From: Lentilactobacillus kribbianus
GTDB lineage: Bacteria > Bacillota > Bacilli > Lactobacillales > Lactobacillaceae
DNA: 64,000 nt
NCBI RefSeq assembly: GCF_013184075.1
Contig: NZ_JABEQQ010000001.1
Coordinates: 248,001-312,000, forward strand
Direction of reading: 5' to 3'
The translations under genes were made by a program, and so were the position numbers. Numbering within the stretch: the first letter of the stretch is position 1; every line of letters starts with the position of its first letter. This document shows positions 2,426 through 50,647 of this stretch, one piece after another. The notes under the pieces were generated by a model. The model made no database searches. It was given only the letters and a program-made list of their open reading frames with translations, and was not told the origin of the DNA.

Positions 2426-2540
2426 AAACAAAAACGTCCACTACCAGTAAGGTAGTGGACGCACCAAGGTTTTAGGTATAGTTTTATACACTAATATTTA
2501 GGCGACACGCGCATCTTACTGGCCTCTCCGGACCAAATTA
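2426..2540 (-). promoter_or_regulatory. PyrR-binding attenuator leader of the uracil permease
   Basis: On the minus strand the leader carries GTCCGGAGAGGCC (about 2520-2535), matching the PyrR-binding loop core TCCnGnGAGGCY. It is followed by a terminator with an 11-bp stem (2435-2445 with 2451-2461) and a TTTTTGTTT tract (2426-2434). CCAGTAAG, at the 3' side of the PyrR site (2515-2522), is an exact complement of CTTACTGG in the terminator (2444-2451), giving an alternative antiterminator helix. This is the known Gram-positive pyr attenuation layout: PyrR-UMP binds, the antiterminator cannot form, and transcription stops. PyrR itself is not in the window. Confidence 0.88.
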
Positions 2541-2560
2541 AAGATTGGTTATTAGAAGCC

Positions 2561-6299: not shown

Positions 6300-6328
6300 A
6301 ATCGATCTAATACATAGATCGGTTTTTT
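6300..6328. terminator. Intrinsic terminator, probably bidirectional
   Basis: CGATCTA (6303-6309) pairs with TAGATCG (6315-6321), with an A tract before and T tract after. It lies between convergent genes. Confidence 0.78.
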
Positions 6329-7466
6329 ATTTTAAACTAGCAAATCCTTGCTGCAGATCCCTCATTAGATCATGTTGATCCTCTACTCCTACCGATAGTC
6401 GAATTAACTCGTCTTTAATACCATTAGCTAACCGAGTTGATTTGGGAATAGCCCCATGGGTCATTACAGCGGGAATCTCAATTAAGCTTTCTAAGGCTCC
6501 TAAGCTTTCCGCTAAGGTAATAGTTTGCAGACTTTGAACAAACCTAACTGGGTCTAAACCAGCCTGTAATTCAAAAGAAATCATAGCACCAAAACCGTTC
6601 ATCTGTTTTTTAGCAATTTCATAATCCGGGTTATCTGGATCACCCGGATAATAGATCTTAGCCACCGCCGGTTCATTTTGGAGGTAATCAAAAATGGCAG
6701 TAGTATTTTTCAAATGGGCTTGCATTCGTAACGCTAAAGTTTTCATGCCACGCTGCAATAACCAACTTTCTTGTGGTGCTAAAATGGCCCCAATGGCATT
6801 TTGTAAATAGCGAATTTGTTCACCTAATTGATCCGACTTAGTCACTACTAAGCCCCCGATAACGTCAGAATGGCCTCCCAAATATTTTGACGCACTATGA
6901 ATCACGATGTCCGCCCCCAATTCCAATGGGCGTTGAATGTATGGTGAACTAAACGTATTGTCAACGATGGTCAGCAGATGATGCTCGTGAGCAATACCGG
7001 CAATCGCTGTAATATCCGTTACCCTTAGCAATGGGTTAGTCGGGGTTTCCAAATAAATCGCTTTGGTATGATCAGTAATTGCCTGTTTCACCGCGATTAG
7101 ATCTCTAGTGTCAACCACTGTAAAAGTCATCCCAAACCGCTTTAAGACCGTTTCAATTAAACAAAATGTGCCCCCATATACATCGTTACCGACTACAAGA
7201 TGATCGCCTTGACTAAACAACGAAAAAACAGTATCAATAGCTGCTGACCCAGAAGCGAAGGCAAATCCCGCACGGCCTCCCTCTAAGTCCGCAATTAATG
7301 ATTCGACTGCTGCTCTAGTTGGGTTACCACTACGAGAATATTCATATTGATTAGCCCCGATTTGTTTTTGCCGAAAAGTCGAAGCCATATAGATCGGTAC
7401 TGATGTTGCTCCCGTAGTAGCGTCTTCACTGATACCACCGTGTAATAACTTAGTTGCAAAATTCAT
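6327..7466 (-). CDS. PLP-dependent cystathionine lyase/synthase (Cys/Met metabolism family)
   Basis: 379-aa fold-type I PLP enzyme of the trans-sulfuration family. YEYSRSGNPTR (about 42-52) is the phosphate and substrate loop, and SASKYLGGHSDVIGG holds the Schiff-base lysine (about residue 194). It could be cystathionine gamma-synthase, gamma-lyase or beta-lyase. The closest impression is the lactococcal beta-lyase/gamma-lyase group, but these are not reliably separated by eye. Start ATG follows ACGAGGT. The leader encodes a Cys-rich peptide and an attenuator, implying control by cysteine supply, which would fit cysteine formation from cystathionine. Confidence 0.9.
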   Translation of the reverse strand: MNFATKLLHGGISEDATTGATSVPIYMASTFRQKQIGANQYEYSRSGNPTRAAVESLIADLEGGRAGFAFASGSAAIDTVFSLFSQGDHLVVGNDVYGGTFCLIETVLKRFGMTFTVVDTRDLIAVKQAITDHTKAIYLETPTNPLLRVTDITAIAGIAHEHHLLTIVDNTFSSPYIQRPLELGADIVIHSASKYLGGHSDVIGGLVVTKSDQLGEQIRYLQNAIGAILAPQESWLLQRGMKTLALRMQAHLKNTTAIFDYLQNEPAVAKIYYPGDPDNPDYEIAKKQMNGFGAMISFELQAGLDPVRFVQSLQTITLAESLGALESLIEIPAVMTHGAIPKSTRLANGIKDELIRLSVGVEDQHDLMRDLQQGFASLK

Positions 7467-7509: not shown

Positions 7510-7546
7510 AAAAAAGGCCCGGAATTCCTCAATGAATTCGCGTGCC
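7510..7546 (-). terminator. Leader terminator (attenuator) before the cystathionine enzyme
   Basis: On the minus strand, GGCACGCGAATTC pairs imperfectly with GAATTCCGGGCC (one bulge, one mismatch) and is followed by TTTTTTG. It lies downstream of the Cys-rich leader peptide and 44 bases upstream of the structural gene. GGCCTTTT in its 3' arm (7512-7519) can instead pair with AAAAGGTC (7573-7580). Confidence 0.82.
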
Positions 7547-7607
7547 CCATCTCCGTAGTGGATTATTAATTAGACCTTTTGGAAAATAACTCTAAATCAG
7601 GTCATGC

Positions 7608-7682
7608 TTAACAAGCCAAACATCGTGAGTCACACGGTGTTTGACAACAAATAGTTTTAACATTAACCAACAATTTAGTCAT
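7608..7682 (-). CDS. Cysteine-rich leader peptide, 24 aa (putative attenuation peptide)
   Basis: A 24-codon frame on the minus strand, starting with ATG at 7682, has a near-ideal Shine-Dalgarno (CGGAGG, 7 bases upstream). Five of its codons are TGT cysteine: codons 12, 13, 17, 21 and 24, the last directly before the TAA. It lies between a sigma-A promoter (7713-7741) and a leader terminator (7510-7546), upstream of the sulfur amino acid gene. This is the layout of amino-acid attenuation leaders, with Cys as the sensed residue. CAAACACCGTG and CACGATGTTTG (7633-7643 and 7617-7627) form a hairpin across codons 14-22. GACCT (7599-7603) can pair with AGGTC (7573-7577) as an anti-antiterminator. 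Expression of the peptide and the exact switch are inferred. Confidence 0.72.
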   Translation of the reverse strand: MTKLLVNVKTICCQTPCDSRCLAC

Positions 7683-7712
7683 TATTTTTCCTCCGTAATT
7701 TAACTTGAATAC

Positions 7713-7741
7713 AGTCTATTCACTCACCTGATAATTGTCAA
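7713..7741 (-). promoter_or_regulatory. Promoter of the Cys-leader transcript
   Basis: On the minus strand, TTGACA (7736-7741), 17 bases, then TAGACT (7713-7718). Confidence 0.75.
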
Positions 7742-7817: not shown

Positions 7818-7889
7818 TGCGTCCCCCGAGAGTCGAACTCGGATCATGAGGACCGAAATCTCATGTGCTATCCATTACACTAAGGACGC
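7818..7889 (-). tRNA. tRNA-Arg (anticodon TCG)
   Basis: A 72-base cloverleaf on the minus strand. The acceptor arms GCGTCCT and GGGACGC pair (one G-T). The anticodon loop TTTCGGT gives anticodon TCG (reads CGA and related codons). The T arm is CGAGT TCGACTC TCGGG-like. The 3' CCA is not encoded and must be added. The closing pair of the anticodon stem is A opposite C, which is unusual. The gene is a single tRNA with its own terminator. Confidence 0.92.
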
Positions 7890-7935: not shown

Positions 7936-8259
7936 TTATTGAACAGCAATTTTTTGTGCTTCATCTTCCAAGTAACCAAAGACTTCATCCGCATTATTTT
8001 TAAAATCTACTAGGAAATTTTCATGAAGTGGTGGTACTACCTTAACTACTTTGCCAGTCAACCCTACTACTTCTAAATTAGGCGCTTGAAAACGTGCCGT
8101 ATCGTAATGGCCCTCCTCAGCAGTTTCTAAATAACGTTGCATCGATTCTACGAGTACTTGGTTAAAAAAAGCTACTTCCGTTACTTCTGGAGCATGTACT
8201 CGTCTTACTGCTAGCATTTCTTGAAATTCCGTGACATTGGTAGGTAAATTAGTTAACAT
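7936..8259 (-). CDS. Unknown 107-aa protein
   Basis: A soluble acidic protein starting at ATG 8259 behind AGAAAGGACTG. The N-terminal half is predicted helical (VTEFQEMLAVRRVH, FFNQVLVESMQRYLETAEE), and the C-terminal half has a beta-like stretch (VVGLTGKVVKVVPP) and an acidic helix. No catalytic motif or family is recognised. It is alone between tRNA-Arg and a divergent flavoprotein gene. Confidence 0.65.
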   Translation of the reverse strand: MLTNLPTNVTEFQEMLAVRRVHAPEVTEVAFFNQVLVESMQRYLETAEEGHYDTARFQAPNLEVVGLTGKVVKVVPPLHENFLVDFKNNADEVFGYLEDEAQKIAVQ

Positions 8260-17358: not shown

Positions 17359-17451
17359 TACAACTATTATCTGGGGTGCCGAAAGGCTGAGATAACACCC
17401 ATCGAACCTGATCTGGTTAATACCAGCGAAGGGAGAATTTTCCGTTGTATT
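17359..17451 (+). ncRNA. TPP (THI-element) riboswitch
   Basis: The conserved core is present in order: GGGGTGCC, GGCTGAGA, ACCC, GAACCTGATCTGG, TTAATACCAGCGAAGGGA. ACAAC and GTTGT at the ends can close P1. A terminator follows 26 bases later, so TPP binding should stop transcription before ykoE. Confidence 0.96.
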
Positions 17452-50243: not shown

Positions 50244-50381
50244 ATTGTCAATGTGTTTTAGAGTTTCACTTTATTAAGGTACTTGTTTTATAGCTTTATG
50301 AAATAACTCCTTAATCATGTTCAACTAGTTAAGATGCATTATAAATATTAAAATGCGCACGGCGCAAGGAGGTTTCATATT

Positions 50382-50585
50382 ATGAAACAAGGTACTGTTA
50401 AATGGTTCAACGCTGATAAAGGTTACGGCTTCATTACTACTGACGATGGTGACGTATTCGTTCACTTCTCAGCTATCAACAAAGATGGTTTCAAGTCACT
50501 TGACGAAGGCCAAAAAGTTACCCTTGACGTTGAAGACAGCGACCGTGGCCCACAAGCTGCTAACGTTTCTGTTGTTGAAGACTAA
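50382..50585 (+). CDS. Cold-shock protein (CspA family)
   Basis: 67-aa single OB-fold RNA chaperone. RNP1-type [11 protein letters not shown] and RNP2-type VFVHFSAI motifs are intact. The gene uses codons of high expression and starts at ATG behind AAGGAGG. It melts RNA structure at low temperature. Confidence 0.97.
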
Positions 50586-50647
50586 TTTTAAAAAACTAAA
50601 ATTAAACTTTACAATTTAAAGGATATATGACATGAGTCATAATTCGT

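Follow-up and report, generated by a model that had tools for sequence, protein, structure and literature searches.

A conserved Cys-codon leader upstream of ctl and cysK-ctl-cysE in Lactobacillales: a probable ribosome-mediated transcription attenuator

Introduction

Ribosome-mediated attenuators of the trp, his, and leu type are established control elements in enterobacteria. The locus reported here resembles them in its consecutive codons for the amino acid of the pathway and in a pause helix, an antiterminator, and a terminator that are mutually exclusive. It differs from them in that the amino acid is cysteine, the hosts are Lactobacillales, and the antiterminator strand lies inside the open reading frame (ORF), just past the control codons.

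Cys codons in leaders have been described in other phyla. The uORFC-8-2 motif of Rhodobacterales usually carries tandem Cys codons at positions 14-15 within a first stem that is followed by an intrinsic terminator (PMC8632094, in part). This motif, however, precedes cysS in alphaproteobacteria, and the portion of PMC8632094 considered here describes no antiterminator, the comparison being by description only. Runs of Cys codons also occur in leader peptides upstream of actinobacterial cys or cbs genes, but those leaders, according to the excerpted text of PMC1262725, have no conserved terminator hairpin, and Rho-dependent termination was suggested for them. Among Firmicutes, the ilv leader Rli60 of Listeria is a ribosome-mediated attenuator with mutational support; it differs from our locus in responding to branched-chain amino acids, in its 13-aa peptide, and in having its alternative hairpins 3′ of the peptide (PMC5864092, in part). 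A predicted His leader peptide before hisS paralogues likewise belongs to Firmicutes that otherwise use T-boxes, but it concerns histidine, is found in Bacillus, and is presented as a prediction only (PMC2965389, in part). T-box leaders (RF00230) themselves sense how far tRNA is charged, and their outcome is likewise a terminator that forms or does not; unlike in those systems, no T-box is present at the locus studied here or at 35 related loci.

Results

Anatomy of the leader

The window, that is, the whole 64,000-nt stretch of Lentilactobacillus kribbianus DNA analyzed, carries the locus on its minus strand (Table 1). A preliminary description of this DNA had proposed a promoter, a near-perfect Shine-Dalgarno sequence, and a 24-codon frame with five Cys codons, and all of these were located where it had placed them, with Cys at codons 12, 13, 17, 21, and 24 of MTKLLVNVKTICCQTPCDSRCLAC. 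The promoter scores 10 of 12 matches, in a region of 401 bases that holds 3 promoter-like sites against 1.4 expected from shuffles. Its TTGACA occupies the same position in aligned relatives, whose leaders are also preceded by similar Shine-Dalgarno motifs. The terminator hairpin reported ahead of a cystathionine lyase/synthase gene is indeed a GC-rich hairpin with a T run in front of a PLP gene. RNAfold gives −15.9 kcal/mol for the 50-nt stretch containing it, and a simple terminator scan of the locus did not return it.

The hairpin said to span the Cys codons is present as well, over the codons that follow Cys12-13 (P1). For the switch itself, the earlier assignments needed correction. GACCT/AGGTC does form a hairpin (P2), and a hairpin is seen by eye at the matching place in relatives, its pairs being uncounted; but the antiterminator consists instead of codons 16-19 and the terminator 5′ arm. 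Apart from a single mismatch, CGTGTGACTCA (7636-7626) and TGGGGCACGCG (7549-7539) pair along their whole length in the window. The other suggested pairing, AAAAGGTC with GGCCTTTT, can be drawn in the window, but no conservation of it was seen by eye and it is not the antiterminator.

Table 1. Features of the leader and its gene, in window coordinates
Feature	Position	Strand	Evidence or detail
Promoter, sigma-70-like, TTGACA-17-TAGACT	7713..7741	−	TTGACA 7741-7736, TAGACT 7718-7713
Shine-Dalgarno GGAGG of the leader	7690..7694	−	7 nt upstream of ATG
Leader ORF, 24 codons, MTKLLVNVKTICCQTPCDSRCLAC	7608..7682	−	Homologous leaders in 60/62 model matches
Tandem Cys codons 12-13 (TGT TGT), proposed stall site	7644..7649	−	Run kept in 60 leaders
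P1 hairpin CAAACACCGTG-TGACT-CACGATGTTTG	7617..7643, arms 7643-7633 / 7627-7617	−	Covariation
Antiterminator strand CGTGTGACTCA, codons 16-19, within leader ORF	7626..7636	−	Pairing energies, covariation, masked folds
P2 hairpin, 3′ of stop codon, GACCT 7603-7599 / AGGTC 7577-7573	7573..7603	−	Sequence
Terminator 5′ arm TGGGGCACGCG, partner of antiterminator strand or of terminator 3′ arm	7539..7549	−	
Intrinsic terminator hairpin and T run, ending at 7510	7510..7548	−	RNAfold, covariation
Regulated gene, cystathionine gamma-lyase (ctl) orthologue, PLP gene	6327..7466	−	Closest solved structure

How often would such an ORF arise by chance? The window holds 595 ATG-started ORFs of 15-40 aa; a Shine-Dalgarno-like motif precedes 25, and 2 of the 25 have at least four Cys codons, the second being, by its coordinates, antisense within the PLP gene. 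When the window was divided into 2542 overlapping stretches of 450 nt, 18 contained the start of a short, CC-bearing ORF with a Shine-Dalgarno motif ahead of it, a base rate that is partly due to MTKLLVNVKTICCQTPCDSRCLAC itself and was obtained with a rule slightly unlike that of the leader script used on the gene side (below).

In agreement with the preliminary description, a search of the whole window with Rfam at the gathering score turned up neither T-box nor SAM elements, and no T-box (RF00230) or SAM/S-box was placed at the leader by covariance models. The window matches at that score are a tRNA and three elements away from the leader, namely, a PyrR binding site (2427-2548, minus strand), a TPP riboswitch (17362-17451, plus strand), and a cspA thermoregulator (50274-50613, plus strand), the last barely above its cutoff (78.1 versus 78 bits). 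A tRNA-Arg gene (anticodon tcg; 7818-7889, minus strand) lies immediately upstream of the leader and is followed by a terminator-like hairpin at 7800-7775. A 107-aa ORF (7936-8259, minus strand) has no Pfam or NCBIfam match at E up to 0.001.

Conservation of the leader

A DNA similarity search of 301 family genomes returned mostly short chance matches but indicated homologous leaders in one other genus. A covariance model built from nine sequences (R1) matched 62 times, in 53 of the 397 Lactobacillaceae genomes searched and in 8 of 40 genera. A tandem-Cys leader ORF is present in 60 of the 62, representing 51 genomes and 7 genera; the two weak matches without a Cys leader (L120 and L121) were dropped before later counts, together with their 2 genomes and genus g37. 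A typical leader reads MTQSMFNAINCCCRTTRFWRCSAC. Among the 60 leaders, 54 start with ATG and 6 with GTG, at least five letters of AAGGAGGTG lie upstream in 57, and the Cys run is two codons long in 26 leaders, three in 28 (6 of these with CFC), and four in 6. Thus, the comparison across species, which had been set beforehand as a possible refutation, found the start codon, the Shine-Dalgarno sequence, and the tandem Cys run kept across genera. Variation of the Cys codons had also been proposed as a check. Same-genus leaders could be compared in 26 pairs, which show 29 differences within the run, every one of them synonymous and at a third codon position; the third-position share of differences in the same pairs is 173/377 before the run and 138/330 after it.

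Within the genus of the window, 13 of 24 genomes matched a larger covariance model (R2), counting a weak and unchecked match in G217, as did 16 of 295 genomes sampled from the order. Reading of these 16, all but G449, found a tandem-Cys leader in 11, four of them belonging to one genus in another family, and no leader of this kind at four order-search loci (L248, L252, L253, and L254). Leader-bearing genera include Lentilactobacillus, Secundilactobacillus, Ligilactobacillus, Lactiplantibacillus, Lacticaseibacillus, and Weissella. Among the at least 118 contig stretches listed, 30 match R2, all from Lactobacillaceae; the other 88 (Bradyrhizobium, Pantoea, and others) gave no R2 match at E up to 0.01 and were taken as unrelated.

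The leader was also approached from the gene side. A CysK-like protein query matched 58 of 151 family genomes at E up to 1e-60, and 35 CysK-like places scored better than 1e-115, of which 30, from 11 genera, were examined (some overlap loci from R1 or R2). A script detected a tandem-Cys leader at 27 of the 30, 174-216 nt upstream of the protein match. L265 is the locus of leader L064, which lies just beyond the scanned stretch, and L280 and L281 are R2 matches in which, by reading, TGC TGC TGC lies in a frame that opens with ATG behind a weak Shine-Dalgarno sequence. At the gathering score, Rfam reported no T-box or other cis-regulator, tRNAs aside, in 35 loci (15 leader loci and 20 of these 30). 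The genome of the window has 16 T-box matches, 6 of them above the cutoff, and none at the leader.

Genes downstream of the leader

Compared with solved structures, the PLP gene product is closest to 6ldo, a cystathionine gamma-lyase (654 bits; next best, 505), which we take to be the L. plantarum enzyme treated in PMC7483736. Its best NCBIfam model is cystathionine gamma-synthase, at a score under the cutoff of that model. In the window ctl stands alone, and neither cysK nor cysE was detected in the genome by a search run without a positive control.

When the downstream genes of the 60 leaders were classed by sequence motifs, 47 leaders were followed by a CysK-like gene. Thirty of these loci continue with ctl and a cysE motif, 13 have ctl with no cysE motif in view, and the remaining ones are cut or altered. 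ctl lies directly downstream of 7 leaders (the window, L095, L101, L104, L109, L117, and L118), an OppA-like lipoprotein gene downstream of 5, all in Ligilactobacillus, and 1 leader is at a contig end. A protein scan with one protein per kind returned the cysteine synthase family, serine O-acetyltransferase, and OppA.

The OppA-like oligopeptide-binding lipoprotein loci of Ligilactobacillus are L103 (two copies), L080, L092, and L097; the presence of a Cys leader there suggests that peptide uptake is under cysteine control. In L249 (genus g37), a Cys leader stands, by reading, upstream of apparent ABC amino-acid transporter genes. A near-identity search with the L. casei copy as query matched 32 plasmid records, all from Lacticaseibacillus. 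On two plasmids (L295 and L296), the leader and cysK-ctl-cysE adjoin IS transposase genes.

Three competing helices

P1, the antiterminator, and the terminator are three mutually competing helices that covary. In an alignment of 57 distinct leaders (A3), P1 is paired in 91.2% of cells, with both-sided changes in 6 of 11 pairs and a covariation score of 0.333 versus 0.197 for shuffles, its number of pair types being no higher than in shuffles. The core of the antiterminator with the terminator 5′ arm is paired in 83.8% of cells (both-sided changes in 6 of 10 pairs; score 0.332 versus 0.205 shuffled), and the terminator in 93.9% (8 of 10 pairs). Slid controls were lower throughout; the highest, the antiterminator slid by two, reached 68.2% paired and a score of 0.155, the pairing being due to its CG repeats. 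A second antiterminator helix (AT2) exceeds the shuffles in cells and score but not in pair counts, and AT3 is weakly above the shuffles but not clearly above the controls. An outer helix, AATGC/GCATT, first read by eye as an extension of P1, was at shuffle level and is not claimed. The spacers between the hairpins differ in both length and sequence in A3, while the Cys codons hardly vary.

Pairing energies offer a further view, as models R1 and R2 do not encode the antiterminator pairing. Over 49 unique pairs, a leader and its own terminator arm pair with −15.6 kcal/mol, a same-genus partner with −13.9, and an other-genus partner with −11.7; permuted arms average −12.05 (sd 0.35; 0 of 20000 as good) and shuffled arms −8.2. 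Loci outside A3 gave −16.6 versus −11.8 (sd 0.54) kcal/mol (0 of 20000) over 27 unique pairs, a set that includes one mis-picked ORF (L291) and for which no ORF was picked in L280 and L281. The permutation and shuffle controls for all of these helices ignore kinship among loci. Weak antiterminators are found in L088 (−9.0 kcal/mol), L091 (−8.5), and L109 (−9.3). In L088 and L091, one codon of the antiterminator strand is altered, with His or Leu in place of Arg, and this cuts the pairing to about −9 kcal/mol.

Folding under a ribosome mask

Folding the RNA in both states, another check named by the preliminary description, indicated that masking just past the Cys codons swaps P1 for the antiterminator. 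The RNA was masked through 12 nt from the first base of the A-site Cys codon, in line with the size of a ribosome footprint, and was truncated at the terminator 5′ arm. Averaged over the 60 leaders, the antiterminator had 3.5 pairs with no ribosome, 11.0 with a stall at the first Cys codon, 8.2 with one at the last Cys codon of the run, and 5.8 with the ribosome at the stop codon; the corresponding P1 means were 7.9, 0.05, 0.08, and 0.23. The antiterminator exceeded P1 in 17, 60, 59, and 57 of the 60 leaders, respectively, and 35 of 60 retained at least six antiterminator pairs with the ribosome on the stop codon. For the window, the antiterminator rose from 0.3 pairs in the free RNA to 10.7 in the stalled one, and P1 fell from 11.6 to 0.0. 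In the consensus fold, P1 is retained when the mask ends at the last Cys codon, and the antiterminator replaces it when the mask reaches 3 or 6 nt farther.

When the full-length RNA is folded to equilibrium, the terminator prevails whatever the state (mean probability 0.91-0.94), and its probability falls below 0.5 under the first-Cys stall in just 2 of 60 leaders. Therefore, the choice must fall while the leader is being transcribed. Moreover, since 17 of 60 leaders favor the antiterminator ribosome-free and 35 of 60 hold it with the ribosome at the stop codon, shut-off needs P1 to form first and the ribosome to be released in time. In the 17 leaders, P1, once made, would have to hold kinetically.

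Discussion

We consider it highly probable that this locus is a ribosome-mediated, cysteine-specific transcription attenuator. When Cys-tRNA is sufficient, the ribosome would pass the Cys codons and leave at the stop codon; P1 would then form over codons 14-22 and hide the antiterminator strand, and the terminator would end transcription. When Cys-tRNA is scarce, the ribosome would stall at codons 12-13 and cover the P1 5′ arm immediately 3′ of them. With P1 blocked, the strand of codons 16-19 would pair with the terminator 5′ arm as the latter emerges, the terminator would be prevented, and ctl (cysK-ctl-cysE in most relatives) would be transcribed. If the leader were untranslated, P1 would be the first to form and the gene would be off. 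We infer the stalling at the tandem Cys codons, its role as the cause of induction under cysteine starvation, and the off state without leader translation; the direction of the stall effect is drawn from the anatomy, because a stalled ribosome would cover the P1 5′ arm and so leave the antiterminator strand free to pair.

The locus combines the parts expected of an attenuator: a conserved short ORF with a Shine-Dalgarno sequence, putatively translated; repeated codons for the amino acid that the regulated genes produce, here tandem Cys, with cysK-ctl-cysE downstream in most cases; an intrinsic terminator separating leader and gene; and an antiterminator exclusive with the terminator and with a pause or protector hairpin, subject to the equilibrium behavior noted above. 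The original proposal of Cys leader attenuation thus finds support in the sequences, with its switch pairing corrected.

Could the leader instead yield a functional Cys-rich peptide, acting in metal or redox sensing or as an arrest peptide, beyond metering Cys-tRNA? The RCxAC end is conserved in many leaders, as such a peptide would suggest. However, of the five Cys codons highlighted in the preliminary description, only the tandem run is kept throughout. In L243-L246, the frame is shifted after CC and the RCxAC end is gone, yet P1 and the antiterminator are retained (L243 and L245 keep one other Cys after the frame change). L247, L249, and L250 are reduced to the CCC run and the RNA pairings, L251 to CCC and the last Cys, and L090, L098, and L117 have lost the last Cys. 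Residues past the run track the pairing of P1 and of the antiterminator. A functional peptide is therefore very improbable, and these natural variants, which lose RCxAC but keep the RNA, make the tandem Cys run the likely sensor, the codons after it being kept, in all likelihood, for RNA pairing.

We see equally little chance that a transcription factor uses the palindrome of the operon as its DNA site, with the short ORF being incidental. Liu et al. 2012, as quoted in the part of PMC6004538 considered here, counts in favor of a DNA site. But in L. paracasei FAM18149 the palindrome, AAGGGCGCGAAA-N16-TTTCGCGCCCTT, is the terminator hairpin of the leader, at 4163-4202 of L295; a T run follows it, and 69 nt separate it from where the leader stop codon begins. 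The letters of the palindrome covary with leader codons ~70 to 105 nt upstream, which a DNA site would not need, and the Shine-Dalgarno sequence, the start codon, and the Cys codons are conserved. A metabolite-binding riboswitch or an antisense RNA that decides termination, with the ORF merely helping, is also most unlikely. An antisense RNA has been reported at the 3′ end of the L. paracasei operon (PMC6004538, in part), whereas Rfam gives only tRNAs in the 35 loci, and just a tRNA and three elements elsewhere in the window. The spacers between hairpins, which differ in length and sequence while the Cys codons stay nearly constant, also speak against this reading.

The strain FAM18149 also links the attenuator to published expression data. 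Plasmid pFAM18149.25 (L295) encodes the leader MMSQSMFNAINCCCRTTRFWRCSAC, and its gene table, incomplete by its own description, has no feature over it. Compared with methionine-deficient medium, cysteine-deficient medium raised cysK2-ctl1-cysE2 transcripts by log2 2.9-3.2, and the Cq of ctl1 was 21.4 under cysteine deficiency against 25.7 under methionine deficiency (PMC6004538, in part). According to the same portion of that source, the operon has high 5′-UTR coverage and a predicted terminator but no T-box or S-box; coverage of structured RNA may have been inflated by RNase III fragmentation, as discussed for T-box leaders; and the control mechanism is "yet to be discovered" (Wuthrich et al. 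2018). Its authors report the 3′ antisense RNA and consider its role, which makes it a possible co-regulator. The published cysteine response could instead stem from another regulator or from the antisense RNA. Nevertheless, the leader very likely acts as such a switch, and this would account for the control step left open in that study of cheese bacteria.

Taken as one joint reading, we think it probable that the leaders make up a cis-regulatory family that is new and spans two or more families of Lactobacillales; that the short ORF is doubly coded, its post-Cys codons serving as protector hairpin and antiterminator strand; that under a stall all of the leader between codon 16 and the terminator arm refolds into a single long antiterminator; that the cysteine regulon extends to OppA uptake in Ligilactobacillus and to an ABC transporter in L249; and that the host bacteria otherwise rely on T-boxes. 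As far as the literature searched and Rfam 15 show, the attenuator is new as a family, its kind of mechanism being known. Among the literature matches listed, mostly from outside subscription journals, there was no Cys leader peptide of lactobacilli and no experiment on the leader itself.

The operon that leads from methionine to cysteine in lactobacilli is relevant to cheese flavor and H2S. A leader in the very strain FAM18149 provides a directly testable answer to its open control mechanism. In a broader sense, T-box-rich Firmicutes would here use a peptide-leader attenuator for one amino acid.
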